The notes under the pieces were generated by a model. It made no database searches and had not been told where the DNA came from. It was given only the letters and a program-made list of their open reading frames with translations. A stretch of 64,000 nucleotides of DNA from Entoloma clypeatum (lineage: Eukaryota; Basidiomycota; Agaricomycetes; Agaricales; Entolomataceae). The stretch spans positions 2,108,001 to 2,172,000 of the forward strand of contig OY751492.1 in the NCBI GenBank assembly GCA_963565915.1. Direction: 5' to 3'. Below are positions 7,769 to 60,248 of this stretch, one piece after another (position 1 is the first letter of the stretch; each line of letters starts with the position of its first letter). A program made the translations under genes and the position numbers.

Positions 7769-8115
7769 TAGCAGAGGGACCTGGGAAACGCTGGCAACAG
7801 CAAGTACCTGCCCACTCTACCCTGGTTGGCAAAGAACCGATCGAAAGATCTAGGTTCTGAGTCATACTTCTTCACATATGAACCTGGGAACGTCATTACG
7901 ACAAGTACCTGTCATGAGACGTCCCTAAGGGGATTGACCTAGTACACTCCATGTGGAAACGTTGATCGCACCTTACGCGTTTCTGACATATAAAGGGCTT
8001 TCCCATGACCGCTATTCCTGAAGGGAATATGTCATAAAGGAATCATTCAATTGTTTTCTCGAATCATATTCATAAACACATCACTGATTGAGAACCCTTT
8101 TTAGATTCATTCAAA

Positions 8116-11100: not shown

Positions 11101-11553
11101 CCCACTCCGGAACCCGAGCAAGTACCAGATCGACCGATCAGGGAACGACGAGTTCGGAAGATGCCAGGAAGCATTTATGGGGAAGACACTCCAGCGTCTG
11201 ATCTTGAAAAATTAGATTGAAGACGGAGACTGGGCGGTCAAACGGCATGGATGAATGACCTCCTGATGGAGGCAATATCAGTCCAAGTTGGCATTGTCGA
11301 CATGTCCCATAAAGACATATACCCTCTTCCAAATAAAGAAGACTGGTATGCGGCTGAACGTAAAGAGCTAGATATGCTCAAACGCCGCGGGGTGATCACG
11401 GAGCTAGTACCCCTGCCTGAAGGGAGGAAAGCTCTAAGGAACAAATGGGTTTACAATGAAAAATCCGACGGGCGCCTGAAAGCACACCTCGTCGCAAAAG
11501 GATTTTCACAAGTAGAAGGGATCGACTTTGATCAGATCTTCTCACCAGTCGTA
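8116..11553 (+). pseudogene. CopA copy 1 Gag-Pol, 3' truncated
   Basis: Single frame as in other Copia elements. Gag (UBN2-type, from about residue 10) has no clear CCHC knuckle; a CTHCKERER motif precedes the protease. Protease has WILDSGASLHFT (codon about 508). The pre-integrase zinc region has TWHKRLGH and CTGCLKGK. The integrase core has HSDLKQ, WRVDGGGEF and NGRAERINR, so the triad is intact. The integrase tail ends with PSKY-like acidic/proline-rich sequence. A TGA at 11218-11220 follows EKLD; copy 2 has the same stop, while copy 3 reads Arg. The frame then continues into reverse transcriptase (NKWVYNEKSDGR) and stops being Copia at about 11553 (SPVV), where unrelated sequence begins. 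The RT catalytic region, RNase H and 3' LTR are missing. Its 9.05-10.47 kb stretch is indistinguishable from copy 3. Confidence 0.93.
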
Positions 11554-19500: not shown

Positions 19501-21345
19501 GTCTACTTTGTAACCATGGTTAAGGAAGACGCCTAGGGACAATAGGCATGTGTCCATGTCTGGGATGTAGAACACCGGTCTGAGAAGATGGGTTTTAACT
19601 TCCCCATTTAGGGTGTGCCGTACTGGAACGGCCCCAACTCCAAGAATTTCCAGTTTCTTCCCTTTGGCTGCAGTTTGGACGAATCGCTTGACCGTGAGAG
19701 GTCTATAATATGCGAAGTCCTTAAACTCATAGGTGAAGTGTAAAGAGGCGCCGGAATCTAATATCCACTGTGCGCGTTCTTTTTCCTTACAATGTGTACA
19801 AGAAGCAAAATGTTTAATATATTTTTTATGTAAATCACTGCTAAAGTGATCTACGCATTCTGTACTGGTACTGGCTATTATGTCATACGTCTGTTGAGAG
19901 GTATTGTTAGCTTTCCGCAATTGGTAAGGTTTAAGAAAGGGTTTTGACGAACCGTCAAGTTCTATCTCATCCTCAAATACATCCGGCCCCATCCGTTCCT
20001 GGTCGATGTCCATCATTTTCAGCGATTCTTCTATCGACGGGGCTACGCGACGCTGTTTAGCCGGCCTTTCGTCGATGTCAGGAATGATGGTATCTAAGAT
20101 ACGGAGGTTTGACCCAGAGGGTTGAGCACCAATTTCTCGGGCGAGTCTTCGCACCCTCTCGTTCTTTTTCCATACAGACGGCTTTCCAGAGGGAAGCCCG
20201 GTGTACTGAGAAGGAGGCGGGTTCATGCGTTGCAGGAGTGACTGCATTTTCTCCGATTCAGGCTGTGCGGTACTCGTAGTTTTCCCGCGGCCCGTTACAG
20301 TGGTGAAGGTAGGTGCATGACGAGGAGGGAGAGGGCAAGGGGCACGCTGACGAGGAGGAAGAGGACAGGGAGCAGGATAACGAGGGGACTGCTCAATGGC
20401 CGGTGCGATGAATTCAACCATTTCCTCGGCATGGTCAGAGTCGTTGTCGGCATTGTTGGCACGTTTCTTCTGGTTGCGCCAGTGTCCCTTTCCCTTCTTC
20501 TTTTCAGAAGCGGTACTCGGGTCAGTCGAGTTAGGCTGCTCGTCAGCATTGTTGCGCGAGGTACTCGGCGCTGTTTGCTTTTCCCATTTGGGGTCTTGCC
20601 CCTTTCGCTTGGTCCCGGAGATTTTCCGGGCCTGCTCGTTGGACGCCCGAGTAGACCCAATTGCATACTTGCGCCTGTACTCCGATATGATGCTGTCGGC
20701 GACGGCCTGCCATGTGAAGTCATCGGCGTCGTAGACCTGGAAGAGGGCGGTGGAGAGAGACGACCAAGCGTCAGGGATGGCACTTGCCAGGATCATAGCC
20801 TGCATCAGATCAGGCACGATGAACTTCGCGTCGCTGAGGCGAGCGAAGAGTGATCCGAGGCGCTCGATTTCCGGTATGGGGTCGCGACCCGAGAGCTTGA
20901 AGGAGGCAGCAGCCTTGAAGTCGCCAAAAATGGTGGCGGGGGAGACCTTCGAATACGCGTCTTTCAAAGATGTCCAAGCTTCCTTTGAGGTTGAGGCGTC
21001 CTTGATGTGCCTCCTGATTGCTTCGGAGACTTTGAGACGGATGGAACCCAGAGCCATGTCATCGTCTCTGATCCAGGCCTTCTTTTCTTTGGCGAAGGCG
21101 GGATGGTCGACAGTGATAGTGACCGCCGGAGGTTGAGTCGCAGATGTCGCAGATGTTGAAGTGGCGGAGGCAGGGGTGGAGACCGTGACCGTAAAGTCCT
21201 TGATGTCGGGGCACTCAATGTCGCCGGATACGAGGCGCCAGACTCCTTGATGGAGAAGGTACGACTTCATTTTTTCGGCCCAACTCTGGTAGTCAATGCC
21301 GTCGAAGATGGCGATGGAGTCGAGGGCGGAGCGAGAGGTAGACAT
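16546..21345 (-). pseudogene. CopA copy 2 Gag-Pol, three in-frame stops
   Basis: Same architecture as copies 1 and 3. Gag from the ATG at 21345, protease (WILDSGASLHFT), TWHKRLGH and CTGCLKGK zinc region, integrase core (HSDLKQ, WRVDGGGEF, AERINR), RT (VIYVDDSAFL) and RNase H ending in LTKNLGKILFNKF. TGA stops lie at 18874-18876 (NG*AER), 18169-18171 (EKLD*RRR, shared with copy 1) and 18028-18030 (AAE*KEL). A proline-rich insertion relative to copy 1 lies in gag around 20320-20390 and is built from short repeats. The stops separate gag-protease-integrase from RT-RNase H. The RT-RNase H half is open for 489 codons. Confidence 0.95.
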
Positions 21346-21706
21346 TGTAGATGAATCTAAAAAGGGTTCCCAATCAGTGATGTGTTATGAATATGATTCA
21401 AGAAAACAATTAAATGATTCCTTATGACATATTCCCTTTAGGAATAGCGGTCACGGGAAAACCCTTTATATGTCAGAAACGTATAAGGTGCGATCAACGT
21501 TTCCACATGGAGTGTACTAGGTCAATCCCCTTAGGGATGTCTCATGACAGGTACTTGTCGTAATGACGTTCCCAGGTTCATATGTGAAGAAGTAAGACTC
21601 AGAACCTAGATCTTTCGATCGGTTCTTTGCCAACCAGGGTAGAGTGGGCAGGTACTCACTGTTGCCAGCGTTTTCCAAGTCCCTCTGCTATCTGGGGCCC
21701 ATAACC

Positions 21707-25970: not shown

Positions 25971-26332
25971 GGTTATGGGCCCCGGATAGCAGAGGGACTT
26001 GGGAAACGCTGGCAACAGTGAGTACCTGCCCACTCTACCCTGGTTGGCAAAGAACCGATCAAAAGATCTAGGTTCTGAGTCTTACTTCTTCACATATGAA
26101 CCTGGGAACGTCATTACGACAAGTACCTGTCATGAGGCATCCCTAAGGGGATTGACCTAGTACACTCCATGTGGAAACGTTGATCGCACCTTGTACGTTT
26201 CTGACATATAAAGGGCTTTCCCGTGACCGCTATTCCTAAAGGGAATATGTCATAAGGAATCATTTAATTGTTTTCTTAAATCATATTCATAACACATCAC
26301 TGATTGGAAACCCTCTTTTAGATTCATCTAAA

Positions 26333-29300
26333 ATGTCTACCTCTTGTTCTGCCCTCGACACAATCACTGCCTTTGACGGCATCGACTACAGGAGCTGGGC
26401 CGAAAAAATGAAGTCTTACCTCCTCCATCAAGGAGTCTGGCGCCTTGTTTCTGGCGACATCCCCCGCCCTGTCATCGCCGACTTCACCACCACAGTCTCC
26501 ACCCCTGGGGCCACTGCTACTGCTCCCCCTGTGCTGGCCACCACGGTCGACCAGCCCGGCTTCCGCAAGGAAGAAAAAACCTGGATCAGGGACGATGACG
26601 TAGCTCTTGGGGCGATACGCCTGAAGGTCTCCGAGGCAATCAGACGCCACATCAAGGACGCCACTTCCTCGAAAGACGCCTGGAAGTCATTAAAGGATGC
26701 TTACTCCAAGGTATCCCCGGCCGTCATCTTCGGCGACTTCAAGGCCGCCGCCACCTACAAGCTCTCTGGACGCGACCCCGTCCCCGAAATCGAACGCCTG
26801 GGGTCTGTTTTCGCTCGGCTCGCCGATTCGAACTTTGACGTCCCCAATCTGATGCAGGCAATGATCCTGGCAAATGCAATTCCCGACGCCTGGTCGTCAC
26901 TCTCCACCGCCCTCTTCCAGGTCTATGACGCCGATGATTTCACCTACAAGGCCGTCGCCGAAAGCATCATATCAGAGTACCGGCGCAAGTATTCGATTGG
27001 GTCCACTCGTACGTCCAACGAGCAGGCCCGGAAAATTTCCGGGACAAAGCGAAAGGGGCAGGACCCCAAATGGGAAAGGCAACAGAAGCCGAGTACCTCG
27101 CAGAACGATGCTGACGAGCAGCCTAACTCGACCGACCATAGTACCGCTTCTGAAAAGAAGAAGGGAAAAGGACGATGGCACAATCAGAAGAAAAACGCCA
27201 ACATTGCGGACAACGCGTCCGATCATGTGGAAGAAACAGTTGAGTTCGTTGCTCCTGCCATTCACTTCCCTCCTCTTCCGGCACCATCCTTCACCACCAT
27301 CACTGGCCGCGGGAAAATGACAAGTACCGCACAGCCCGATTCCGGAAAAATGCAGTCGCTCCTGCAACGCATGAACCCCCCTCCATCACAGTACACCGGG
27401 CTTCCTTCTGGAAAACCATCCATGTGGAAAAAGAACGACCATGTCCGCAAACTCGCGCGCGGCATTGGTGCTCGCCCCTCAGGATCGAATCTTCGTATCC
27501 TAGATACCATCATCCCTGAAATCGACGAAAGGCCGGCTAAACAGCGTCGCGTAGCCCCGTCGATAGAAGAATCGCTGAAGATGATGGACATAGACCATCA
27601 AAGCGAGCGGATGGGGCCGGAACAATTCGAAGACGGGCTGATCGAACTTGACGGTTCGTCACATTCTTCTCTCAAACTTGACCAAATGGGAAATGCTAAT
27701 AATCACGCACAGACGTTTGAATATATATTAGCCAGTACCGATGCAGATAGTATAGATCTCTTTAGCGATGATCTGTACAAAAAATATACCAAACATTTTG
27801 CGTCCTGCACACACTGCAAAGAGAGAGAACGCGCTCAGTGGATCTTAGATTCCGGTGCATCATTACACTTTACCCATGAGTTTAAAGACTTCGCGTACTA
27901 CAGGCCTCTCAAGGCTAAGCGATTCGTCCAAACAGCTGCAAAGGGAAAGAAACTGGAAATTCTTGGAGTTGGGGCCGTTCCAGTACGGCATACCCTAAAT
28001 GGGGAAATAAAAACCCATCTTCTCCGACCTGTATTCTACATTCCGGACATGGACACACGCCTATTGTCCCTAGGCGTCTTCCTTAATCACGGGTACAAAG
28101 TAGACGGAATGCGTGGAGAAATTAACATCTCCAAAGGACAGAACAAAATACAGTTCTCGCCTCACATTCTCGGACAAACCATTTACTGGTTAGACACTGA
28201 AATACGCTATGACCAAATCCACGCGATCTCTAGCGAAATCACTGTTGAAACCTGGCACAAACGCCTTGGCCACCTGAATGACCAGGCGCTCAATAAGATT
28301 CCCACCAGTACCAAAGGAGTACCCAGAACGTTAGTACGTGAGAAATCACAGGAAAGCTGCACGGGGTGTCTAAAAGGGAAAATGCCGAATCAGTCTTACC
28401 CTAACTCAATGACAAGGGCTGTCAAACCCTTTGATTTGATCCATTCGGACCTGAAACAGATATCCACGGCATCGTACCACAAGTACAAATATTTCCTTAC
28501 CTTTTTGGATGATTTTTCTTCCCATGTCTGGGTCGTCTTGCTCAGGAAAAAGTCAGGCGCCATCACGGCGCTGAAACAATTCCTTGCGATGATCCAGAAT
28601 CAATTCGCCGCCACCCCTAAAAAATGGCGGGTTGATGGAGGTGGAGAATTTGACGAATACAAGGATGTACTTGCCGATCATGGAATTCTGATCGACGTCA
28701 CACTCCCATATCAGCATCAGCAGAATGGTAGAGCAGAACGGATAAATCGAACTCTGTGGGAAAAATCTCAGGCATTGCGTTTCGACGCATGTCTACCGCC
28801 GATGTGGTGGGAATTCTGTTTGGAACATGCAGCATTTCTATACAACAGAACCCCCATGCGGCATCTTGAATGGAAAACCCCTTATTTCAGGGTGACCAAT
28901 GAGATCCCCGACATGTCCAGCATCAGAGTCTTCGGATGCCAAGCATACGTATATATCCCAAAAGAAAAACGCAGAAACTCCCTGGAGTCAAGATCTCGAT
29001 TAATGATTTATCTCGGATCAAAACCAGGGGTCAAAGGATACCGCTTCATGGATCCTGAGACTAACACGATTTTCATGGGTGGGAAAGCTATCTTTGATGA
29101 AAGCAAGTACCCTAGATGTCACATCGACCCTTTGCCAGAAAACCATCCAGAAATGGAAAACCCAGAGCCGGCTGATGAGTTTGAGGATCTCATCCCTGGC
29201 AGCAACGACGACGATAGTCACAATGAAACACCTCAGGACTCAGTTCCCATTGAACAGAATCAACCTGAATCAGACAACGAACTACCTGCCAGTGAGCCTG

Positions 29301-31060
29301 ATGACGAACCGCGAGTACCCACTCCAGAACCCGAGCAAGTACCAGATCGACCGATCAGGGAACGACGAGTTCGGAAAATGCCAGGAAGCATCTATGGGGA
29401 AGACACTCCAGCATCTGATCTTGAAAAATTAGACAGAAGACGGAGATTGGGCGGTCAAACGGCATGGATGAATGACCTTCTGATGGAGGCAATATCAGTC
29501 CAAGTTGGCATCGTTGAAATGTCTCACAAAGACATATACCCTCTTCCAAATAAAGAAGACTGGTATGCGGCTGAACGTAAAGAGCTAGATATGCTCAAAC
29601 GCCGCGGGGTGATCACGGAGCTAGTACCCCTGCCTGAAGGGAGGAAAGCTCTAAGGAACAAATGGGTTTACAATGAAAAATCCGATGGGCGTCTGAAAGC
29701 GCGCCTCGTCGCAAAAGGCTTCTCACAGGTAGAAGGGATCGACTTTGATCAGATCTTCTCACCAGTCGTAAGATATGAAACCATCCGACTAATACTGGCA
29801 TTGACAGCCCTTGAAGGGTGGTTCATGACACTTTTGGACGTCTCATCAGCCTTCCTCTATGGAACGCTCCGTGAAGTCATTTACATGCGACAGCCTGAGG
29901 GCTATATAGTAAAAGGGAAAGAACACCTCGTGTACCAACTATTCAAAGCTCTATATGGACTTAAGCAGGCCGCATTAGCCTGGTGGAGGGAACTTGATTC
30001 CTCCATGAAAAAGCTCGGCTTTGTCCGGCTTCACTCCGATGCGGGAGTGTTCATCCACAAAAGTACCAGCGGGGAAATTGTAATCGCCGTCATCTATGTC
30101 GACGACTCTGCTTTTCTCGGCACAAACCGGGAATATACGCTAGAGAAAAAGAAGGCCTTCATGACCACATGGGAATGTAGGGACCTAGGGCACCTTGTGC
30201 CTGATGGGGAACCGAAAGAATTTCTCTCTATCCAAATAAGGCAACGCGGGAAACGTATCTTCATTGATCAAGTACCTTACCTTGAGAAAATACTCGAACG
30301 AATGGGGATGAGCGAATCTAATGCCACCCATACCCCACTTCCTACGGGCTACAAACCCATGATGTCTGAAGATGAACCCAATGTAGAACTTCGATCAAAG
30401 TACCAATCCGTCATCGGATCACTTCTATATCTAATGATTGGAACAAGGCCAGACATCTGCTTTGCCGTGATCAAAATGTCGCAGTTTTCCGCAAATCCCA
30501 CCAAACACCATTTAGAAGTGGCTAGGGATGTTTGCAGGTATCTGAAAGCGACAAAAAATTACGCAATCATGTATGATGGTGACTCAGGGAAAGGGATCTA
30601 TGCATTCACAGACTCCGATTGGGCGTCAGATGAAAACACGAGGAGGTCTACTACTGGCTTCTTCATATCACTGGCGTCTGGAGCAGTAACATGGGTATCA
30701 TCGGCGCAAAAGACCATCGCCCTCTCTTCCACAGAAGCAGAGTATATGGCGTTATCAGACTGCAGTCGCGCAGCAACATGGCTGAGAAGCATGCTTGCCG
30801 AACTTGGAATGCAGATCGGATCAGTACCGATCTACGGAGATAACAACGGCTCCGTCTTCATCGCATCCAACCCTGTAACTGAGAAGCGATCCAAGCACAT
30901 TGACGTGTGATTCCACTTCGTCAGAGAAAAAGTCTCCGAAGGGATAATTACGGTCGAATTTATTGAAGGAGTGAACAACCCTGCAGACCTCTTAACTAAG
31001 AATCTGGGAAAAATCCTCTTTTCCAAGTTTATCCCGTACTTCGGATTGATAAAAAACTAG
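26333..31060 (+). pseudogene. CopA copy 3 Gag-Pol, nearly intact (one TGA)
   Basis: A frame of 1575 codons from ATG 26333 to TAG 31058-31060, broken only by TGA at 30908-30910, where copy 2 has CGA (KHIDVRF). Order: Gag (1 to about 480), CTHCKERER, protease DSGAS (about 509), TWHKRLGH and CTGCLKGK zinc region, integrase triad HSDLK, WRVDGGGEF and NGRAERINR, acidic/proline linker, RT (NKWVYNEKSDGR, QPEGY, VIYVDDSAFL), RNase H (TDSDWASDENTRR, SSTEAEYMALSDC, DNNGSVFI). The stop removes the last 50 residues, after the RNase H catalytic residues, so a truncated but possibly active polyprotein cannot be excluded. At EKLD it reads RRRR, not the stop found in copies 1 and 2. Confidence 0.95.
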
Positions 31061-35620: not shown

Positions 35621-35639
35621 TCACCCCCCCTTCAAGGCA

Positions 35640-38600
35640 CGGCGTCTCGATGTGTCAGGCAAAACGAGTCGAATATCACGGCGGCGATCCGCCGTGGAGC
35701 TCCCGGATGGCATCGGTAGAAGTCGCGGACTAGGCGCGGAGCGTGGACATTGTCTTCTGCTTCCCAGGAATTCTCTTCGTAGCCACCATTTGACCAAGAA
35801 TTGAAGCTTGCCTCGATGCAGTCGGCTGTCCAAGAGGTTTTCAACATCATACTCTAATTCTTCTCCAACTACCATCGGAGGCGGAGGAGAGTGGACTTGG
35901 CGTCGGAAGGGGTCGTCGGGAACTAGTGAAAGTTTGATGACATGGAATACTGGGTGAACGCGGGACATGGAAGGGGGAAGGCGAAGTTTGTAGGCATGTG
36001 TTCCGACAGGTCGGACCACTGGGAAAGGGCCTATGTATTGATGTGCAAGTTTCTTTGTGGGTCGGGTGGTTTTGAGGTCTGATGAGTCTAAAAAGACCTT
36101 GTCCCCCGGGTGGAATGTCGGAGTGGTGCTCCAATGCTGGTTGTAGTATCGCGCCATGTCATCTTTTGCCTTTGTCAGTGCTGCGCGAGCCTCCTCTAGA
36201 GCGGACTTCATCTGCTGGCTGAAATCCGCTACTGCCTCGATCTCTGTCCGCTTCTTGCAAGGTTCGAATCCCATGCGCAGATGGCGGCCAGTGTCAATGT
36301 AGAATGGAGTTTGACGTGTCGATGCATGAACATGGTTGTTGTATGCAAATTCAGCCATCAGAAGCCATTCGTCCCAATCGTCTTGATGTTCATTGACGAA
36401 TAGGCGAAGATATCATTCCAATCCTTGATTGACCCGCTCCGTCTGTCTGTCCGACTGCGGATGGTAGGCTGTCGAGGCAGCAACCTTAATGTTAAGCAGC
36501 CTGTATAGTTCGCGCGTGAACTTGGTGACAAACTGTGGTCCTCGGTTGGAGACAATGGCCTCCGGTAGTCCGTGGAGTTTCCAGACATTTTGAACATAGG
36601 AGCGTGCAGTCCCGAGTGCGGAGATGTCGGAGTGCGTCGGGATGAAGTGTCCCCGCTTCCCTACTGAGTCCACTACGACCATGATAGCATTGTAGCCGTG
36701 GGCTTCTGGTAGTTCAGTAATGAAGTCAACACTGGTTACTTGCCATTGCTCCGTGGGGACTGGTAGCGGATTGAGCTCTCCGGAGGGCGGAGTGCGTCGG
36801 ACCTTGGTGCGGAGGCATGGGTCACATGTCTTGCAATATTGACCTATTAAACGAGACATGTGTGGCCACCAGTAATTGCGCGACACCAGTTCCAAGGTTT
36901 TCCACCATCCAGGATGTCCGGCCACTGGAGTGTCATGGTGTTGTGTGAGGATCCGATGATGCAGTTGGGGATTGTTAGGAACATAGATACGATCCCTGAA
37001 GTAGAGCAAACCTTCCGCTTGCCTCCACTCCACACTATGGACAGACCCCGCTCCGACGGTCGGAAGGGATTGGACAACCACACTATCCTCCAGTAACCCC
37101 TCTTGGATTCCCTGTCAGACCTGGCAGAGGATGTCGTGTTCTTCCCCTTGAACAGTTACCCCACGCATTGCTCGCACTGCAAACAATTCTGATTGAAGAA
37201 GGATGATGTTTTCATTGTCCTGCGATCCGTCTCCGTGGTCCGCTTGTCGGGACAAAGCGTCGGACTTGCCCATTGACTTGCCAGGTCGATGGTGCATTTT
37301 GAAATCGAAACGAGCGAGGTATAAGGACCATCTAGCCTGTCGTCAATTTAGTTTTTGAGCTGTCATGAAATACTCAAGATTTTTGTGGTCCGTCCAAATC
37401 TCCACTCTCTTCTCCGCTCCTTCAAGGAAGTGCCTCCACTCCTCCAATGCGCGGACCACCGCCAACATCTCCTTGTTGTAGATCTCGTAGTTGCGTTCCA
37501 CCGGACTTAGGCTTTTGGAATAGAATGCGACAGGGTGCCACTTACCGTCCTCTGTTGGTTGGGACAGTACTGCTCCGGTTGCAAAGTCCGAGCTATCCAC
37601 TTCTATCCGCCACTCCTTTCCATGATCAGCTAGGACCAGGATCGGAGCGGATGTAATCCTCCGCTTCAACTCCGCAAATGCGGACACTTCTCCCTCCCTC
37701 CAAGACCAGAGGTGCCCTTTCTTCGTGAGCTCGAAAAGAGGGCGCGCAATGTCCAAAAGCCCTTCAATAAAACGGCGATAGAAGTTAGTGAACCCCAGAA
37801 AGGACTGTACTTCTCGGACGTTTGTCGGAGCAGGCCACTCCGCGACCCCCGCTACTTTCACCGGATCCATCTCTACATGTCCTTGTTCAATAATAAGGCC
37901 TAGGTATTCAATGCATGTTTGTTCAAACTCGCATTTCTCTGGTTTTAGATAGAGTTTGTGTTCACAAAGTCGTTCCAGTATGATCCGTGTGACTCTCCGA
38001 TGCTCCGCAAGGGTCTCTGTGAAGATGAGTATGTCGTCGAGGTAAACACAGACTACACCTTCAGTGATAAGGTCCTGAAAGATTATAGTCTGGAATGTGG
38101 ATGGACTATTAGTGAGGCCGAAGAACATCACCAATGGTTCATAGAGTCCGCCATTGGTTTGAAAAGCGGCCTTCCACTTGTCTCCGGGTTTTATCCGCAC
38201 ATTGTTGTAGCCCCAGCAGATGTCGAGCTTGGTGAAGTATTGAGCGCATTGAAGTTTATTGATCAGTTCAGATATGAGCAGAAGCGGATACTTGTTTTTG
38301 ATAGTTTTGGAATTGAGTGACTGGTAGTCTTGTACAAGACGAAGCGAGCCATCCTTCTTCTTGATGTAGAATACTGGAGATGCCATTGGAGACTTGGAAG
38401 GGCGAATCCGACCAGTTGCAAGGTTTTCCTCCAAAAATGCGTCGAGTTCCTTCTGTTTGTTCGGAGCAAGCAGATATACCTTACAACCTGCCAGAGAGGC
38501 GTCCGGAACAAGTTCAATGGTGTGGTCCCAAGTCCGCTCTTCCGGTAAGGTGTTGAAAGAGGTCTTTGAGAATACATCTTCAAAGTCAAACAAGTGGTCC

Positions 38601-39664
38601 GGTACAGAGTCGCGGAAAGATTTAGGTTTTTGGTTACTGAGGAAGGCCTCCGATAGACGTTGCGAGATATTGGATGAAGCACGGATGAACTCCGCCTCCA
38701 CGGGTACTGTTCCGACAAAAAGGCGATCTCCCTCCTCAAACTCATCCTCTTCCTCATCGTCTTCTGCTAACTCCTCCGGTTCCTCTCCTTCTGTGACATC
38801 CTCCACCCATGGGCCACGTGGAGCCTCCTCCTCTAGACCAGATGTCGGAGTGGAACCCATCTGACAGGCTCGGATGGGGACTTGTTCAAACTTCCGCTCC
38901 TTCTGCTCTTGGGCTGCCTCCTGGTGGCATGTCCGATATCGTGCAGGACACCGGCTCATCTTCACTTCCCCTGACATCCAATCTACCTCGGGGTTGTGTT
39001 CTTTGAGCCAAGTGAAGCCTAACATGATTTCTTGTTTTCCCAAACTTGTGACTGCAAGCTGGGTCCGTTCCGAGTGATCCCAATAGCAGAGCACTACATC
39101 CAACACCTCCGTTATTGCTCCAGCCTCGTTTGGAGTTCCGTCGATGTTGTATACCGGAATTGCGCGTTGTAGTTTTCGAGTAGAGAGTCGATGTTTCTCA
39201 ACCAGAGTGCATTCAATAAACGACCCTGTTGCCCCGCTGTTGAGTAAGGCCTTTTGTGATAGTGTGTCTTTAGTGTCGGTAGTTTCAAGAACTATGTCTA
39301 GTTCAATAGAATTGTCGGAGTGAGCGGAGGCGAGGACATACCGATGCTCCCATTTAGAGAGGCAAAGGCGGATGGGATTTGCGGAGTTGGGTGCGACTAT
39401 GGGATTGTTTGCAGGCTTAGAGATGGAGGGTATAGGATCATATTGTTCCATAAATAAGGCAGCATAATGATTTTTAGCAGACAACGAGGGCGCACTGTTC
39501 ACTCGCTGTGGGGAGGAAAGTCCTCCTGTCCTTCCTCCGACTCCGCAGACTCCGTGGGCAGAACGGAGTTGCCTTCCGCTGTGTCCTTGACCACGAGTTG
39601 TTCCATAACAAACTCGTCCTGCTCCTCCGTTGTCATGAAGCGAACATCGAAGCAAAGGGGGCAT
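35640..39664 (-). pseudogene. Gypsy-A copy 2 pol (protease to chromodomain), inactive
   Basis: Protease ALLNSGATGSFIE, whose expected Asp is Asn. A Glu/Asp-rich linker follows. RT has LATGRIRPSKSPMASP, KKDGSLRLVQDYQ and VCVYLDDILIF, RNase H has IEVDSSDFATGAVLSQ and EIWTDHKNLEYF, and integrase is as in copy 1, with VSNRGPQF (Asn for catalytic Asp). TGA stops at 37343-37345, about 37115 and 36413-36415, and a frameshift in the chromodomain near 35781. The first 700 or so codons of pol, through RNase H, are open. Pol lies in the -1 frame relative to gag and overlaps its end (39499-39664), compatible with a frameshift arrangement. Confidence 0.94.
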
Positions 39665-40743
39665 TCACGACTAAAGTGACCCGTTTTGTTACATCTGAAG
39701 CATGCATTGGCATTCTTGCCTTTGATGCGTGAAGTATCAATGTCCATTGCATTGGGGTCCCTTGTCGGCGGAGTGGATGCGGATGCGAGCGGAGCTGTAT
39801 GCAGAGTGAATGGAATGTAGGGGCGAGGGAATACTGAGGTGCCAGGTACTCATGGTCCAACAACGTTGCGGAAGGTGGAGGTGCGGGTCAGAGCAGTGGC
39901 TTTGAAGGCTTTGTTGGCAATCCTATTGTCGTCATTGACTCGTGCTGCAGAGTACCACTCATCGGGGTTGTCATCCACAGGTCGTCCATGGGTCAGGGTG
40001 GCAATCTCGTTCTGAATGTCGGAACGGAGACCATGGCAGAATTTGAGTACGATGTTGGTATCCTCCTGATAGCCCGCTTTGTCAATGTAGTCTTTGAACT
40101 TGTCAATATAGGTCTCGACATCCCGTTGACCTTGATAATAGGATTCTCCTTCGAGGATCAGTCTCGCGTCCTGTTCCTCATTCTTCGGAGTGAACTCCGT
40201 TGTAAAGACGGCGCGGAAGTCCACCCAAGTCCGATAAGGCGGAGCACCGGTCCTCCGCTCTTGTCGGATAATGCGATCCGCAAAGCGTGCTGCGCGTCCA
40301 CTCTTCATGAAAGATAAGGCCCAATAAATTTTAGCGTGGTCGTCTGCGAACTGTTCCGGAGCCAGCCCCATAAACAATTCACAGGAGTTTAGAAAGGTCC
40401 AGCCATTTGCGCGTGATCCATCAAAGTCCGACGGATTGGCAGGTTTTGCTCGACGCACGCCCAGATTGGCCGGAGCGAGCAGAGCGGGTATAATAGTGGG
40501 TGTGGGAGCAGCTGGGATAGGTGGCGGAGCTGGGGCAGGAATTGCATTGAAGGCGAGGAGGAGTTGGTCAAGTTGAGTTGAGATATTATCGAGAGTTTGA
40601 CATTGTTCCTGGAACTCGTGCTCGAGCTGTTCAAGGCGATTGGGGTCGTCCATTACTATGCACGGAGCAGAATCACCAGTTACGGAGAGGTAATTAGAAG
40701 AACTGGAAGGGGTGTGAGATGTATCAGAGTCGGACGCGGACAA
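39499..40743 (-). pseudogene. Gypsy-A copy 2 gag
   Basis: ATG at 40743. The gag core reads KPANPSDFDGSRANGWTFLN, then FMGLAPEQFADDHAKIYWAL and GQRDVETYIDKFKDYIDKAG. After a TGA at 39850-39852 the frame continues to the CCHC knuckle CFRCNKTGHFSREC and a short Glu-rich tail ending at 39499. A coiled-coil-like N-terminal stretch (RLEQLEHEFQEQ) precedes a Pro/Ala-rich hinge. Without the TGA this would be a typical 410-residue Gypsy Gag. Confidence 0.92.
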
Positions 40744-40814
40744 AGCTGCTCCGAAGCGTGGAATTGTGACAACAATGCAATTGGACCCGGTCCAATTAGA
40801 AGAGAACTTTCTAC

Positions 40815-40924
40815 TGCAAGGGCGACCTTACGATCCAAGACTCAAACTCAGATACTTGCAAGGGAGATCCGAAGTTTAGATTGAGCAGTCTGATAAGTAA
40901 TACAACACACACCTTGCAAGGGAG
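40815..40924 (-). repeat. Gypsy-A copy 2, 5' LTR remnant
   Basis: Plus strand TGCAAGGGCGACCTTACG ... CTTGCAAGGGAG matches the first 110 bp of the LTR at 35202. It then breaks into an unrelated dispersed repeat. About 310 bp including the promoter are missing, so this copy cannot be transcribed from its own 5' LTR. Confidence 0.88.
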
Positions 40925-50225: not shown

Positions 50226-50452
50226 CACTCCTATAGATATTTCATCTATAGCATCATGTGCCCAATCCCATGACATACAAATAAATGTACAAATAAGTAG
50301 ACTAGTATATAAGACTGTCCTTATTCTCTGTGCAATCTAACGCTCTTACCGAGTAACCCCCACCTGCAAACACCTCTCAAGGTTAGTAGTAGGATTCTCT
50401 CTCTATCGTAGATACATGATCTGTAGCGTGTAGCATAGAGTAGGAGACACCG
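50226..50452. other. Possible LTR or leader of CopE
   Basis: TGTTGAACGAATTCC (50213) and ...CGTTGAACA (50462) could be LTR ends, with AGTATATAAGAC as promoter box near 50309. However, the following frame starts in the middle of gag and there is no matching LTR at the 3' end, so the assignment is weak. Confidence 0.3.
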
Positions 50453-53400
50453 TTGAACAACTCCAGTGATCAAAACAAGAAGCAGCTGTTTGTACCCAAA
50501 AAGGTAGGGTTGCGGAGTTGGAAAAAGGTCCAGCCCACCCAAGAGGCCACTGCAGGCGGTACCGCTGGCTGCTCTCATGTTGCCTCATTGGCAATGACTA
50601 TGAATCTGCTGACACCTCCCTTCACCACTGTCACAGGCTCGGGACGTGTCATTCCCCCCCAACAATCTTCTACTCTGACGACTGACCCCCGTCGTTGTCC
50701 TCTCGAATCACGGTTGACATCTAGTCCCGCTGAACATATCATGACTGCTGGTGCGAGAGAACTCCTCAATCGCATGACAAACATGTCTGTGCAACACTTC
50801 ACAGGTGCTCCGGTTAATCAACCGTCGATGTACCCTGAGATGCAGGCAGCGCGCGACGTTGTCACATCTCTTGGCATTGTGGGAACATCCCAGACCCTCC
50901 AAAATGTCAATAATGTCATATACCCTGAAGACATTCTGGGGATATATTTTACCCCTGACAATGAGGTAATGGATGAAGATTCCCTGTTCCTGATGGAACG
51001 CCAAGATTATGATGCTGATACAGTGATGGACTTTGATGAGGAGTATGAGTATGATGAAGATGAACCTGGACCATCCAAGTGGACACATTTCAGTTGGGTG
51101 GATGAAGTTGATGATGAGCTTTTTGGAGGTTCATCATGTGATGACCAGAGGTACGTTCTTTCACAAGTTTCACATGAGCACACAATGACAGAAGAACACA
51201 CCCAGATTCGTGATGAGTCACTAGAACCAGGTTGTAGTTATTTAAAATCACCTGTTGTTGCTGCCTCCTTCATGGAGGAAATATATGATCATTTTGCCTC
51301 ATGTTCAAAATGTAAGAACAAAACCAAAGATACTAATGACGCTGAGTGGATAATGGATTCCAGCGCTAGTATGCACTCCACCGCAGAGATGAGTGACTTT
51401 GCAACATACAAAGAAGAGAAATCTGTCCGTACTGCCCAAACTGCGGGCAAAGCAAAGATCTCTATAAAAGGAAGAGGGACCGTGTTTATCACTCACACAA
51501 TACCATCGCATCAAGGAAAGCCAAGAAGTCTAACAACTCGGCTTTATCCGGTTCTACACATCCCGGAGCTTTCCACTTGCCTCATGTCGATGGGTGAAAT
51601 TCTTCAAGAATCTGGACCCTGGTAAAGATGTCCTGAAAAAGGCACCCGACGCATGTGATGGATTCCCTAGGGATGTCCAATTTCCCCTTAAGGATAAGCC
51701 ATGCCGTCCCTGCGCAGAAGCGAAGTTGAGGTTGAAAAGCTTCCCTCCTTCACCTTCATGTGCTTCCAGACCCTTTGAGTTGCTCCATTCGGACCTCAAA
51801 GAGTTTCCTATCGCCTCCTATCACAAATTTAAATACTACATCAGCTTCTTGGATGACTATTCTGGGCATGCTTGGACGGTATTGTTGAAACTCAAATCTG
51901 ATACCTCTGATGCATTCAAAAAGTGGACAACGCTTATGAAAACCCAGTTTAATGCCCAATTTCGCCGATGGCGTTTTGATGGAGGGGGAGAATTCAAAAA
52001 GGAAACTGGGGTAGTAAAATACCTCGAGGATCTTGGAATTGCCATGGAAATTTCAGCTCCTAATACACCCCAACAAAATGGTTGAGCCGAAAGGATTAAC
52101 CGCACCATTGTAGAGAAAGCACAGGTGATGTGATTTGCCACCTGCTTACCACAATCATGGTGGGAGTTTTGTGTTTTACATGCTGTGCATGTCTATAATC
52201 GCACGCCAATTAAATGACTTTATTGGAAAACACCTTTTGAATCACTAAAAGGGGAAAAACTGGATGTATCTAATCTCCATGTTTTAGGCTGCGCTGCCTA
52301 TGTTTATATTCCTGAAGAACACCATGTGAATAAATTAAATCCACGTGCAGAGCTTATGACCTTTATGGGTTTTAAACCAGGAATGAAAGCATATCAGTTT
52401 ATGACTGATAAAAACAGTATCTTTATCGGTACTACTGCGGTATTCAATGAAACACTTTTTCCGAGGTGTCCGGATACCAAAGTGCCACAACACACACCCA
52501 TGGGAAATGAGCCTTCCCATGATGAGTATCAGAATAACGGAAACCCTGATGACAATGTTGATCACCACTTCGGAGATGGATATGTTCATTATCATTCCCG
52601 CCAGCGTAATCAGCTGAGTGGAGATGAATCCTCCGATCCCCCTTCCGCTCCAAATGGAAACCAGCGTGATGGCGCTGACATACCACCTTCAAATCAGGAT
52701 GATCCTGAGGTCCAGAACCAGCTGGCGAATCCTCCGCCTGCTGATGCCCCTCAACCACAAAGGAATGCTAACCTGCCTCAACGGGAAGGCAACATCTACG
52801 GGGAGCAACAGCACCCCGCGCAACAACAACGCAACATCAATTGCACATGCTCTTGGCGTGAAGCCGTGAATCGAGAGAAACAGCAGTGTGAGTCTTCCCG
52901 GCTCCGCAATGTTCCCCAATCATGACAGGAAGAAGCGGAACCTAGTTCCCCCTTATCCCCACCTGACACAGGGCCTAGTGGATCTTCCGGTACTCCTCCC
53001 GGTGGCCCCGAAGTTCCTGATGACAAACCTTTGGAAGATACGGATGCAGAGAGCTTACTGCGCAAAATGATGAATGATGTGGAGCTAGGTCCAAAAGCAT
53101 TTAACTTGTACCTAGAACGATTAGTTCAGAAACAAGGGGGAGACACAAAACAGATCGCTGAGTTGAACGCGCTACTTGCATCAGCCGTTCCTCACTCTGA
53201 ATCTAATCTCTCACAGTTCTGTGATATCTGGGAGATGAAGTTTCGCAACATTGCCAAAATGCCGAAAAACCTCCAGGATGAGTGTTTGGACGCATGCCAT
53301 AAGGAACTTGATAGCATCAAGCGGTGTGATGTCTATGATCTAACACCTTTACCGACCGGACGGAAGGCCATCGGATCATGATGGGTCTTCAACATAAAGA

Positions 53401-53946
53401 CCAACGGCCATAAAAAGGCTCAGCTTGTTGCACAAGGGTTCTTGCAAATTGAGGGAATCGATTTCGATGAGGTATTCTCTCCCGTAGTTTGATTCGAGAC
53501 AGTACATCTCATGCTGGCTACCGCTGCGCTTGAGAGTTTGGTGATCCTTGTGCTAGACGTAACTGCTGCTTTTCTTTATGAGAAACTCCAGGAAGAGTTA
53601 TACATGATGCAACCCGAAGGCTTCAAAACAAAAGGCAAAGAACTTCTTGTTTGGTGCCTACATACAGTTCAAAGCAGGCTGGACTGGCATGGTGGCATGC
53701 CATGAAGAAATCCATGAAGAAACTAGGTTTCCGAAGGGTCATATCTGACGCCAGAATCTTTGTTTTCTATTTCCCAAACGGAACCATCGTACTAGCAATA
53801 ATCTATGTCGATGATGCGATGTTCATGGGACCAGACGCTAAGCTTACAACTGTTAAAAGAGCCTAATTCATGGCTATTTGGGAATCTCATGATCTAGGTG
53901 AACCCACTGAATCTTGAGAATGTGCATCATGCGTACCAAGAATATG
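50453..53946 (+). pseudogene. CopE Gag-Pol, 5' portion
   Basis: Gag remnant without N-terminus, acidic linker, C-x2-C pair (CSKCKNK), protease WIMDSSASMHST with Ser for the Gly of DSG. A deletion at about 51610 removes the His pair of the pre-integrase zinc finger. The integrase core has HSDLKEF, WRFDGGGEF and then TGA in NG*AERINR, the same codon as in CopA copy 2. The integrase tail has LGCAAYVYIPEE. RT has TGRKAIGS*WVFN, SPVV*FETV, LDVTAAFLYEKL and IIYVDDAMFMG. At least eight TGA stops and two frameshifts. Split at 53946 by hAT-S inside codons for MRTKNT; continues at 60240. Confidence 0.92.
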
Positions 53947-54184
53947 TAGTGTTGCCGCAACTCGGCTACTCACAAAGTCATGGCTTGGCACATATTCAAC
54001 TCGGCTTGTCAACCGAACCAATTTATTTGGCTCTGTTTGGCTCAGCAGCCGGAGCAAGCTGGTCCCGAGTCATGGAACTGATCAATCAATTGCCAAAACA
54101 GTGCATGTCATTATATAATAATATATTTATCATTTTATCGGCTGCTTGATGTTCTCATTACGTATAAAAAGCATAATTATTCAG

Positions 54185-55085
54185 TCATACGAGATACAAT
54201 ATATTTTTATACATCATGAGCCACAATTTGTCTAAGTTCATCACCCAAAATTGAGACAACATCAATGTGAGATGATCGTGAGTGTCTCTTGGTGACAATA
54301 ACATGTCATCCTCCGGTGTTTCTAGCCCCTGCGTGAAATCCAACCTCTGCCGCTTCAATGAAAACTTCAGGATTTGAAGGGCCTCCATCATGATTGGATG
54401 GATTTGGTTCCGGCGCTTCATGTCCATCTCACTAGCTGATGAAAATATACACTCACAAGGAATGGCAGATGCCTGGATTGAGAGATAGTCGAGAGCCATG
54501 GCATACAATGTGGGGTACCGGCGTGGGTCTTGCTTTCCCTCCATCTGGATGCAGTAGTTAGTATTTCGAAGTTGCATATGCTTGACAAAAGCATTGGCAG
54601 CTTTTCTGCACACATGTTTTGCTGCACGACATGTGGAATCTATTTAAACCAGTCAAGATATGTAGTAATTAATGATTGTGAAACCTTACTGTGAGGACTG
54701 AGGCAAAGTCTTCCAAATTGTCCCACTCTCGTTCAGTCAACTTGAGGTGAGCAATATCTCTATTGAGAGGATTGGTTAGAAAGGTTTCGATGGGCTGTAG
54801 GTCAAGATGAGAAGTGCAAAAGACGCGAGACGAAGAAAAGCTTTCCTGTTGCAAATAGAGACATCTAACGACCATGGCATGTATCGAGTCCCAACGAGAA
54901 TGGACGTTGAGGAGGAGTTGGAGAATCTTGATATTCTTGCTTTTTCCTTCGGTGTCAAGGCCCCACCAGTGCTCCTGATTGCCGAGTGTGATCGTGTTTT
55001 CAAAGTGCTCAATTCTCTGTCCCGAAGCCCAGACCGTGTGTACAGTGTTGTGGCAGGCAGCAACGACATTGTGACTTCCGTAGAA
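54185..55085 (-). pseudogene. hAT transposase, C-terminal part with internal deletion
   Basis: N-proximal piece ILQLLLNVHSRWDSIHAMV and LTEREWDNLEDFASVLT, the helical region before the hAT dimerisation domain. An intron (54640-54689, GTAAGG...AATAG) then joins IPHVVQQNMCAEKLPML. A deletion jumps to the dimerisation domain (hATC): PRRYPTLYAMALDYLSIQAS, then IPCECIFSSASEMDMKRRNQ, with the signature SS/A-E-x4-R-N. The DDE residues lie in the missing parts or were not recognised. Upstream (55086-55337) an open minus-strand stretch (MDNAKICEEQLPTFDPHH) may be another piece. Clearly not functional in this copy. Confidence 0.85.
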
Positions 55086-56188
55086 CTATCTAATGTAGTC
55101 TAGTAAATAGAATAGAACTACTAATTCAAATAAGTATATGGAAACTAACTGTCCACGGACGCTGCTACTGCATTGCCGACGTCGGTTCATGATGCACTGC
55201 CCACAAGGCAGATCATATCTGCCGATGAATTCAATCCCCCACCCGATGCTGCTGTTCCATCGCTGCTCCATGATCACACACACATGATGCGGATCGAATG
55301 TCGGGAGCTGCTCTTCGCAAATCTTGGCATTGTCCATTCATCATATTAATGGATTTGACCGCCGCAATCTTGGCAACAGGTGCATGATGTGTATTTACAT
55401 GAGCCTAATGTGCGTACATCAGGCCAACGTGCATGCAAATGAGGAGCAAACAAAGGCGGCCACCCACAAGCAATTCACCACCGGCATCGACGCCATCCAG
55501 TTGGCCTCTTTGCAAGCATCTAGGAGAGCTGTCTTCACTCCGACTGCTGAGGCGCCGGAAAGCAGTGAAGGTGAGGTCGAGCACCAGTACCTCAGTAGTG
55601 ATCCAACCACTGGTACGATCACCGCCTCTGCCCATAACCATTGATGAACTGGGGAACCAGGTTGCTGGTTGAATAAACAGCGGCCACGCAACTCCGGACC
55701 TTTCCCTACACCTCTCACCTCCATGAGGCCCTAAACCCATATTAGATTTAATTGTAAGTACGACTTCCGACCCCCGATTCTGTTGTTTGAGTCCCGTGGT
55801 GTATCAACAACTGGACACCCCAACACGTGATTTTTTCTTCTTGCTTTCACACCACCACCTACCGACCTCCCCATCCTCAGTAAGTTCTGTAAGATAGGTT
55901 TTATTAGTACATGTAATTAGTAAATCATAAGCACTGATGAGTACTCAAATTGAAGCGGGGGCAAAGATAAAGCCCCACCCATCGGCAGCACGTCCTGCAT
56001 GGGCAAATTGATGTGTAGTGTATGATACGCGCACACCAGATTCATGGACTCCTCGCTCTGAAGGAGTATGCAAGGGAACCAGGGGCCCATGGAGCGAGGG
56101 CTGTTCTTTGTTTTCTACGATTTGAACATCAACTGTACCATGAAAGCTAATTATCACATCCCATAGATCATCAATCGAACCCACCAAC
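55086..56188. other. Interior of hAT-S between transposase and Spt5-like gene
   Basis: Two frames are candidates: plus 55324-55644 (EEQTKAATHKQFTTGIDAIQ, 106 codons) and minus 55945-56235 (LVGSIDDLWDVIISFHG, 96 codons). Neither is recognised. The stretch should hold the transposase N-terminus and the divergent promoters of the two genes. Confidence 0.35.
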
Positions 56189-59100
56189 AGGGTGAGTCGT
56201 TGCCGGGTATGTCTGTCTTCTTGCTCATGCAACATGCGGGGGGCTTACAGTCCGTTAAACAGATCACAGAAGCTCATAATCCCTTCGTGGATCTCGAGGC
56301 TCAAGTCAATGATGCTGATGATGATGATGATGAGGAGGAGGAGGAGGAGGAGGATGGTAAGCAACCCGTCCTCTTATTTTGATCCACTTCTGAGGTAGCT
56401 CTAGGTTTTATCAATGACCAGGAGGATAATCACCCTGAGGGTATTCGGCGGTGGAACGATTACCAGGCCGGTGGACTGGACAAGCCACAGGATGAGCCGG
56501 AGGATGATATTGATTGGGACGTGGTCCATGAACGTGCGCACTACTGCGCCACCAGGGTGTGGTGCCAACACCCCATGACTGCATACGACGACGAGGTGTC
56601 TGGCAGAATTTTACCACACAATCTACTGTGTCAACCTCGAACGTCAGACAAACCTATTTGGCAGCTCCGATGCTGGGTAAGTCTTCATTCATCTCGTTTG
56701 TGGTAAGTCTCAAGGATATTCCAGCCTGGATTTGAAGAAGAAGTTGTCTACACGCTCTTCCAGCTAGTCAAGGACAGGGTGACGCCAGACGTTCTATCAG
56801 CGGCCTATACCCGTGGACCTCTCCGAGGGTCAGTTTTCATCGAGGCCGACATGAACCCAAACCTCCGTAGCTTCCTGCGCCGCATCCCCGGGGTCATGAA
56901 GAGAGGAAACCTGTTGGTTTCACAAGACCAGCTAGCAACGCCTATCGTCAAGTTTGTCCCACTGGAAGATTGACCAGCGACACTCTGTCTTCCTCAGGAT
57001 CGGGAACTAAGGCTCAGGATCGGACAGTGGGTGTGGGTCTTAAGAGGTGCCTACAAAGGTGACCTTGGGTACGTCAACAAGTTAATGCCATGGGGTGGCA
57101 TACAACTCCTCCTGGTGCCTCGCCTCCAGCTTTCAACCCCTCTCTCATCAAGAAAACGGGGCAAGCACCATGCTCCACTCCTCCTCCTCCCCAGGCTCTT
57201 TTCAATCCCTCTGTCATTGAAAAGATCTTCGGCATCCCACCGACTCCAAAAGGGAATGATACTTTTTTTTTTCGATGGGTGCACTTTCGAACATGGCCTG
57301 CTGATAAAAGACTTCAACGTGTATTCCGTGTCGTCTGAGGCTGTCTCCATCTCCACTGAATTGCATGCCCTTTTCCTCCTCAGCCCGCACCCGGGGATCC
57401 AACGCCTGATGGGCGAGGAGTTTCCCACCCCGCTTGAATGGGCGTTTGTAAGGGCGACCTTACGATCCAAGACTCAAACTCAGATACTTGCAAGGGAGAT
57501 CCAAAGGTTAGATTAAAGACTACTAAACAACAATATATCGTACCTTGCAAGGGAGATCCAAAGAGAAAACTCTAAGGAATCCCCTGCAACCGAAGCAGAT
57601 ATATAGAAAAAGGGAATTGGAAATGGAAGCGGAACGGCAATGAGAATATATGAAATAGTAGGAATATTTGAAATAAGATATCCACTCCACATTTCGGAGT
57701 GGATCAGAGGACGTCGGAGATGGGGGTTGAAGAGATAAATATATAAGTGATGTATCGTACCGTGCATGGACTTGAAGTAATAAGGTCATGTTGAAAGACC
57801 GAAGGGCGGAGAACAGGCCGTCGGAATATCGGAGATATGTCGGAGGTGTTTGGAAAGGAAAAGGAAAATGTAAAGTATAGTAAGTGTAAGTAATAAACGC
57901 ACCACATCTAGAAGTCCGATAACCGGAGGGTCGGAGGTATGTTGGGAATCATCGGAGATCATCGGAAACCGTCGGAGGTGGTGGAAAGAGAATGCGAAAG
58001 GGAGAAGAAAGGAGAAGGGAAGGGATATTGCCTGTATTGCTGGGCATGGAGAAATGTGGAGCTCCGATGGAGAAACGACAGTGTCAAGTGTGCAGGAAGT
58101 GCGGAGCTACGTCGGAAAAGTGCGGAGCTATATCGGAGGAGTGCGGAGCTCCGATGGAGGTACCAGGATATAGAAATACGGAGGGTAAGATGGACCTTGG
58201 TGTTAGTGAAACCAATGAAAGCGATGTTGCCCTTACAGTAAGATGGATGGAAATCCATCAGAGGGAACTATCCTGAACAAGGCTTCGGAACATTGGAACC
58301 CAGTGGGGGTGGATGGAGGAGAGTCGGAACAGGTGGAGAGATTTCGGAGTAGATCGGAGCAGCATCGGAGGTTATAGGAGGGTGATGGAGTTGCGAGAGC
58401 AGTCAACAAAAAGGAGGATTGTCTTGACATTGTATGGGCAGAGTCGAGGAACAGAAAGAAACAAGGATAGAAGGAATGACTTCCTTGCTAAGGTCTCTAA
58501 TCCTCTAGGGGCTTGCCCTTACAGCGTTCTTTCCTGGAGAGTCAGTCAAAATTGTTGAAGGTTCGCACAATGGGGAATTCAGCCGGGTCAAACTTGCTCA
58601 ACCAGACTTTGTTGAGGTCGAAGTCGCTGAAATGGGGGGTGAGGTTTTGAAACTTCCATGGTACCATGTCTGCAAATCCATCAGTATTGGCGATTTCGTC
58701 AGAGTTGTCGGAGGCGTGCATAGAGGCCGAATGGTATTTGTAGAGCAGGTAGACTACATTGACATCTGGATCCTTGAAAAAGGTGGTGACGACACCCGTC
58801 CTGCTATGGAGGTACAGCACTTCTTTTCAGGGAAGAAACATTCATCTTCTAACTTCTTTTTTAGTCATTTGTCATTCACAAAAACAGCGCCTCAATCACA
58901 GAACTGCCCATGCTGCATGCTGTGTCACTGCCCTCTTCAGATGATTTGGCACTTTCAGCGGCGTTGAAGGAGCGGCATCAAGTCCCCTGGCAGGGGGTCA
59001 AGGTCATGGTTATCAAGCGTGGACACCAGCGTAAAGGCCAGCCCACAGTCGTTGAGAATGTTCTGCCCAATGAAGATACAGTGAGCGGCCTCAGGATTGA

Positions 59101-59914
59101 AGTCCGTTTCATAAACTATGATCCAAATGCGCCATTCCCAAAGGTGATCTTTGATTATGATGACGTGGTTGAATTCGAGTATGAGTTCCATCCAATATAC
59201 ATTCATCCTCTGATGCTAATTAATGATCCTTGCTTTCAGCACCAAGCAAGAGCTATTCGAGTTCCAGTACCCACAAAGTCGCCTCTTCAACCCACTTTTC
59301 CGTGACCCACTTCCCCACGCCCGGCCCCCCCCACCCATCTTAATCGCGAGCACCCCCATGCCTGAGCCTAGAGGCTCATCGTCCACCCCAGCTTGGGATC
59401 CATCGTCGCAGACTCCAGGTCGCTACTCCCACCTCACAACACCCTCCACATCCGCGCCCACTCCCGATCATGATCTTCTTGATCCACGTTTCTTGGGCAT
59501 CAAAGTACAGGTGAAGGTTACTAGCAGCCAGTTCAACCTGTCGCAGGTCTATGTTTTTCAGCACCATGCATGACGGACAGCTGAAAATTATTTACATGGT
59601 GAATCAAAGGATGCACGTTTTGGACCCAGATTGGGTTTCTATCATCCATCTGAATGTGAAGCAGACTGATGCTCTGCTTGTCGTTCTCAAGGGGGATCAT
59701 CAGGGTAGGTTTGCTCTTCGAATTTGTCATAGTCGCCGTGGCTCCAAGGAAGCAGCTCTCGTCAAAATCATCAATCCCGTCGGTGCAAGTTCAACTTGGA
59801 CAGGAATTGAGGTGCAGCTGCCTGCAGACCACCTTGCAATTGTCTTTGAAATGAAGGAAGAGAAACGGTGGCATGAGGAGTGCATGGTAGATCGTCAAAA
59901 GTGGGCTCGCAACT
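56189..59914 (+). pseudogene. Spt5-like transcription elongation factor carried by hAT-S
   Basis: Spt5 order throughout. Acidic N-terminus (NPFVDLEAQV, then a D/E run). Intron 56357-56404. NGN domain: KPIWQLRCW, intron 56677-56724, PGFEEEVVYTLFQLV, LRGSVFIEADMN, RRIPGVMKRGN. KOW: IGQWVWVLRGAYKGDLGYVN. Linker ALFNPSVIEKIFG, FEHGLLIKDFNVYSVSSEA. LTR-C is inserted at WAF/FPGE. Two further KOWs: FFPGESVKIVEGSHNGEFSRV and SIGDFVRVVGGVHRGRMVFV. Intron with TTCTAAC branch ends about 58863. KOW4 VPWQGVKVMVIKRGHQRKGQ. Intron 59179-59239. Spt5 CTR-like STPAWDPSSQTPG. Last KOW LKGDHQGR, stop at 59912. TGA after PLED (56971-56973, possibly intronic) and shifts near 57120, 57275 and 59548. Start uncertain; an upstream exon before GTGAGTC at about 56191 is likely. 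In cells Spt5 with Spt4 clamps RNA polymerase II. Confidence 0.85.
57447..58523 (-). repeat. LTR-C solo LTR (1077 bp) in the Spt5-like gene
   Basis: TGTAAGGGCGACC ... GGGGCTTGCCCTTACA with TSD GCGTT (57442-57446 and 58524-58528). Orientation opposite to the copy at 32338. Removing LTR and one TSD joins TGG GCG TTC TTT CCT in frame, so it entered a reading frame that was still continuous here. Confidence 0.93.
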
Positions 59915-60099
59915 GACATTTTTTTACTATTGTTTTATTTTGATAAGAATTCTTCCCCTGCCCTACCTACATACATCATTATCATCACGCTTAGGGCATT
60001 TTATATGATATATTTACACTTGAATCATATTGCTTGCTTGCAGAAAGAAGTCTCAGAGATGCGCAAGTGTTTTGTTTGAATTTGTGTTTGTTGTGTTTA

Positions 60100-60239
60100 C
60101 GAGGCACCGGCTCAAGCCGGCAGCTGAACCGAAACTGCTTACAACTGCGGCTTTGGAAGTCATGGCTTCAGAACATCACGGTTCAGCTCAGTTTCGGCTC
60201 TGTGCAGTGCAGTTTCGGCTCAGAACTGCGGCAACACTA
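60100..60239 (+). repeat. hAT-S subterminal repeats and right TIR
   Basis: Repeated GAACTGCGGC, CCGAAACTGC and AGTTTCGGCTC words in both orientations, next to the terminal GCGGCAACACTA. The left end has CTCGGCTACTC, CTCGGCTTGTC and TTGGCTC. Clustered subterminal motifs are the usual transposase-binding sites of hAT elements. Confidence 0.65.
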
Positions 60240-60248
60240 AGAATACAA

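Follow-up and report, generated by a model that had tools for sequence, protein, structure and literature searches.

The stretch of DNA analysed here, called the window, comprises 64,000 nt of the fungus Entoloma clypeatum (Agaricales; Entolomataceae; assembly GCA_963565915.1, contig OY751492.1, positions 2,108,001-2,172,000, forward strand). At 53947-60239 it contains a hAT transposon of 6,293 bp, which carries a gene of the Spt5 family in addition to a transposase remnant. The inverted ends proposed in an earlier sequence-only reading are present as exact 13-bp repeats, the left one (TAGTGTTGCCGCA) at 53947-53959 on the plus strand and the right one at 60227-60239 on the minus strand. No other exact match occurs in the window; if up to three mismatches are allowed there are 13 matches, against 12.65 expected by chance. 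In the 60.1-Mb genome the exact end is found 33 times and the reversed pattern, which served as control, once. A chance pairing of the two ends is thus ruled out. The 8-bp target-site duplication that had been claimed is imperfect in the window copy, where the flanks AGAATATG (53939-53946) and AGAATACA (60240-60247) agree at six of eight positions, but it is clean in sibling copies. Next to the right inverted repeat the window copy is about 16 bp shorter than its siblings. The transposase remnant is indeed located inside the ends and in antisense: a C-terminal piece with the hAT dimerisation domain at 54185-54643 on the minus strand (PF05699, 36.6 bits, cut-off 21.4) and a further remnant at 54563-55081 on the same strand, which is 95% and 94% identical to the sibling copies L084 and L085, respectively. 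About 600 bp of the transposase of these siblings are missing, with the junction at about 54563. The family thus shows 8-bp target duplications, short terminal inverted repeats, and the PF05699 domain of hAT elements.

The Spt5-like gene is encoded on the plus strand. Its translation starts with an acidic N-terminus (NPFVDLEAQVNDADDDDDEEEEEEED, 56279-56358), similar to the start of protein P0005, followed by an NGN domain at 56725-56928 (PF03439, borderline with 22.5 bits at a cut-off of 22.4) and the KOW1-linker region at 56974-57446, which in L085 matches Spt5 in the PDB. Two KOW exons (58524-58811 and 58865-59178) and the last exon (59240-59916) are separated by GT-AG introns of 53 bp (58812-58864) and 61 bp (59179-59239), which were deduced from the sequence and are the same in L084 and L085. 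In the window the KOW4_SPT5 match of the first KOW exon (22.2 bits, cut-off 27) and the KOW4/5_SPT5 matches at 58509-58967 stay under the cut-off. In L085 both are over the cut-offs of 27 (KOW5_SPT5 31.1 bits, KOW4_SPT5 29.4 bits), and there the NGN domain is under its cut-off (17.8 bits). The last exon encodes one unit, TPAWDPSSQTP (59385-59417), that resembles the C-terminal repeat (CTR) of Spt5, and the C-terminal region. The acidic N-terminus and this motif are therefore both present as previously described, but the motif does not form an array: it is a single unit in the window, while the host Spt5 has five. An NGN domain and several KOW domains are found, a repeated C-terminal region is not. 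The retained introns had been taken to exclude capture as processed mRNA. With two introns at identical positions in three of three copies examined, capture as genomic DNA would fit, in a comparison that covers transposon copies.

The window copy itself is damaged. A premature TGA is located at 56971-56973, where L085 is open, and compared to L084 and L085 one base is missing at about 57167 and one is extra at each of about 57273 and 59554, so that the frame is lost between the first two of these positions. In the case of a one-base difference to L085 at about 58978 the fault seems to be in L085, because the window frame is open there. Furthermore, the gene is interrupted by a nested non-autonomous transposon of 1,077 bp (57447-58523, plus strand; ends TGTAAGGGC and GCCCTTACA, duplication GCGTT), which is missing from L084 and L085; a stretch 96% identical to it is found in L010. 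Because of the stop codon, the one-base shifts, the nested transposon, and the lost part of the transposase, the window gene is a decayed copy. The complete Spt5 layout that had been ascribed to it is therefore a property of the family and not of this copy.

Whether the gene is standard cargo of a transposon family or a single capture had been left undecided, and the genome answers in favour of family cargo. The KOW fragment (exon 58865-59178) has 50 protein matches, fragments included, the 3' half of the gene 49 DNA matches, the transposase side 52, and the right end 31, with pieces of one copy counted separately. Both flanks were read for 12 elements, whose ends were paired by proximity and strand. 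Four of them have perfect 8-bp duplications, on C8 (GGCTGATC), C9 (ACTATAAC), C11 (GGGATAAC), and C15 (ACCATTTT), and a further element at C9:1519057 has seven of eight matching positions in addition to the window copy with its six. The four with perfect duplications contain the gene or a part of it, only a part being left in the C9 and C15 elements. The right flank of the C15 element recurs at C15:2026633, which shows that this region is duplicated. The numerous genome matches, the elements with perfect duplications, and the same arrangement in three subfamilies support the reading of a hAT element with an NGN-KOW gene and rule out a single capture. Copies of the same hAT without the gene had been named as evidence to the contrary. 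Such copies do exist, as several left ends lack a nearby gene match and five right-end matches span just the final ~120 bp. The latter probably mark derivatives without the gene, and the gene-less copies in general resemble fragments of an end or derivatives with an internal deletion. Two further loci, L014 and the 874-bp miniature L030, share the 13-bp end but have TAGTGTTGCCGCAAGGTGAGG on its inner side and a related transposase (53-55%); no NGN match is listed near either of them.

The transposon genes belong to three subfamilies, family I with 25 rows, family II with five, and family III with eight. Over well-aligned codons their NGN-KOW proteins are 58% (II to I), 50% (III to I), and 45% (II to III) identical. 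The transposase is oriented toward the left end and the NGN-KOW gene toward the right end in all three. The hAT dimerisation domain has 122 matches in the genome, and it is found upstream of the gene and antisense to it within 15 kb in 10/25, 2/5, and 3/8 rows of families I, II, and III, respectively, compared to once in any other placement near these genes. With random placement the average was 0.53 and the highest value 5 in 2000 trials, on 13 of 20 contigs that hold nearly all of the genome, with C19 at an assumed length. The rows for this comparison were the 50 KOW-match rows minus five second pieces of already counted genes plus five rows from another search, and one row belongs to no assigned family. 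The transposases are graded in the same way. Apart from damaged pieces, the longer matches are 77-100% identical within family I, 60-65% at three loci of which two adjoin family II genes, 54-58% at six loci of which three adjoin family III genes, and 42-53% in the remainder, whose best three loci have neither an NGN nor a KOW match listed nearby. A family III element on C5 with the end TAGTGTTGCCGCG has a transposase 64.6% identical to that of family I over 79 residues, the family II value being 64.4% over 101 residues. Given these graded identities, gene and transposase appear to have diverged together. Both genes are enclosed by one pair of ends and have inserted together at several sites, with one layout common to three subfamilies. 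The family III loci L087 and L088 share 96-98% identity across most of 9 kb; the similarity continues beyond the 9 kb compared and their ends were not found. Their upstream open frames have no Pfam match over the cut-off.

The transposon gene is not the only Spt5 of the genome. A separate host Spt5 (L031/L086) is encoded at C10:3766401, with an NGN domain of 70 bits, a 449-residue frame matching PDB Spt5 at E 6.3e-87, and five TP[AG]WN units downstream compared to the one TPAWD unit of the window copy. Against the PDB Spt5 chain 8qsz the host frame scores 295.5 bits and L085 53.8 bits (E 1.2e-13). In a tree of 33 NGN-KOW1 rows (eight re-fetched loci, the identical copies L046 and L079, and rows below 75% coverage were left out) the transposon genes form a clade apart from the host Spt5, as had been predicted. 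A branch of 99/96 separates families I-V, IX, and two Panaeolus proteins from the host Spt5, two PDB Spt5 fragments, and the single-copy genes VI and VII, whose position is unsure because of long branches. In other species, scoring was limited to the 7,991 candidates with the most shared words, and 12 of these have E ≤1e-5. Relatives with an NGN domain are found in Panaeolus papilionaceus and P. cyanescens, and more distant ones in Marasmius and Dendrothele, for which no NGN match was obtained at E up to 1. The P. cyanescens protein P0006 is 1,292 residues long, of which about 500 are extra ones at the C-terminus, and has no further Pfam match at E up to 1. Within E. clypeatum, L034 (C2:41498) and L032 (C15:1519348) are further single-copy Spt5-like genes with open frames of 336-337 residues and without a hAT dimerisation domain within 15 kb; they are possible independent paralogs.

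Concerning selection, third codon positions are about twice as divergent between subfamilies as first and second positions. The protein should therefore have been under constraint for long, and purifying constraint during the divergence of the subfamilies is supported by the codon comparison. Together with the copy number, the target duplications, and the common layout, we regard it as quite probable that the Spt5-like gene is standard, selected cargo of a two-gene hAT lineage. Several observations weigh against this. A target duplication is missing from six of the 12 paired elements, and among the copies examined none has both genes demonstrably intact, the transposase being fragmentary. The dimerisation domain is missing from its expected place within 15 kb in 23 of the 38 gene rows. 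The structure considered is that of the Panaeolus relative P0004 and not of the window protein. In addition, the Spt5-like families IV-IX have no hAT dimerisation domain within 15 kb, and IV, V, VIII, and IX have no link to any transposon in the DNA examined. A host family of Spt5-like genes around which hAT elements landed by chance could account for families IV-IX and for the full-length relatives in other Agaricales. It is, however, very improbable given the four perfect target duplications, the co-amplification, and the fixed order and orientation compared to random placement; for family I the perfect duplications contradict it, and for families II and III the shared ends and transposase.

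The remaining objection comes from recent changes within family I, which look close to neutral as judged by ratios of non-synonymous to synonymous substitution rates (dN/dS). Singletons gave omega-like ratios of 0.74, 0.87, and 0.75 in three gene segments, and shared changes 0.64, 0.59, and, in the last exon, 1.03, which indicates mild constraint in two segments and none in the last exon. For one exon the pooled dN/dS of 12 distinct rows is 0.42, while the other sense frames are at 0.85 and 0.84 and two antisense frames at 0.72 and 0.92. Antisense frame 1, in which the wobble positions coincide, is at 0.40. The 22 singletons look neutral (13 replacement and 9 silent, 14.1 and 7.3 expected). 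Strong purifying selection within family I is thus without clean support, as antisense frame 1 is similarly low and the singletons look neutral. A figure for family II was set aside because two damaged family I rows (L067 and L076) were mixed in. Near-neutral changes and several broken copies, including that of the window, would be expected if the gene were a passive hitchhiker, a host Spt5 paralog captured by an ancestor that is replicated with the element and brings it no benefit, and gene capture by hAT elements in fungi is known from ToxhAT, according to summaries of that system. We consider this unlikely, because the gene is conserved in three subfamilies with the third-position excess, and its order and orientation are constant wherever the transposase is found. 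Decay after insertion is, moreover, expected for any transposon gene, and a transposase segment behaves alike (0.91 and 0.82). The pattern is what would be expected if selection acts on the gene while a copy is active and decay follows once it has inserted, but this alone is no proof of a benefit to the element.

The element in the window is inserted into a copia-type retrotransposon, judged by eye from the flanking frames and by a Pol_BBD match at 50444-51622. The window's long open frames (8092-11217, 16549-21384, 26240-30907, 35624-40827, and 50444-51622) are genes of long terminal repeat (LTR) retrotransposons, copia-type ones, one with 1,556 residues, and one Ty3-type element.

Like Spt5, the large subunit of DSIF, the transposon gene combines an acidic start, an NGN domain, multiple KOW domains, and a CTR-like TPAWD unit, but it belongs to a separate clade, has one such unit instead of five, and resides inside a transposon. 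In this two-gene lineage the transposase reads to the left end, and the divergent Spt5-family gene, which reads to the right end, has an acidic start and an NGN domain, then several KOW domains, a single CTR-like unit, and a C-terminal domain. Everything beyond this anatomy and the constraint is what we infer from them. The protein would ride RNA polymerase II (Pol II) via NGN, probably with the host Spt4, and would favour elongation over the element's genes or lift co-transcriptional silencing by the host. Such a Pol II-riding role for the benefit of the element, by analogy to that proposed for plasmid NusG paralogs, seems possible but somewhat less likely than not. Alternatively, the Spt5-like protein could serve transposition as a second DNA- or RNA-binding protein and not as an elongation factor. 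DNA transposons with two proteins exist, and with the CTR reduced to one unit the CTR-dependent functions of Spt5 may be lost. Nevertheless, the Panaeolus relative P0004 has kept the NGN, KOW1-linker, and KOW2-3 folds of Spt5, and we think that a mere transposition protein is an improbable explanation.

An elongation factor on a mobile element has precedents in bacteria. Specialised NusG paralogs include RfaH, LoaP, UpxY, and NusG-SP (PMC7593976, PMC7819879); plasmid-resident ones have been proposed to act as antiterminators in the long operons of the plasmid itself, and RfaH activates operons that NusG and Rho silence (PMC7593976). These NusG copies on plasmids or in xenogeneic operons resemble the Entoloma gene as specialised copies of the universal NusG/Spt5 factor on mobile DNA, but they are bacterial, and a comparable function of the Entoloma gene is hypothetical. 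ToxhAT and other gene-capturing fungal hAT elements similarly have an extra gene between hAT ends, as they are outlined in the literature, but there it is an effector gene and here a transcription factor in three subfamilies. Members of the Spt5 family that are dedicated to non-coding transcription or to transcription linked to silencing are described for Paramecium (Spt5m, PMC8934623) and plants (KTF1, PMC10229537); in Paramecium, both germline expression and the developmental rearrangement of the genome require Spt4-Spt5m (PMC8934623). In contrast to the Entoloma gene these are genes of host genome defence and not of transposons. A transposon's own Spt5 could act from the opposite side. In the literature searched, mainly titles and abstract openings, we found no report of an Spt5-like gene on a eukaryotic transposon. 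Specialised copies on bacterial plasmids are already known.

It is conceivable, if somewhat doubtful, that a eukaryotic DNA transposon lineage has a Pol II elongation factor of its own, a counterpart of the plasmid NusG paralogs that would keep the element's genes transcribed despite co-transcriptional silencing by the host or would compete with the host Spt5. Provided that the protein does act on Pol II, the system, with its many natural variants and a separate host Spt5 in one nucleus, would allow testing whether transposons escape silencing during elongation.
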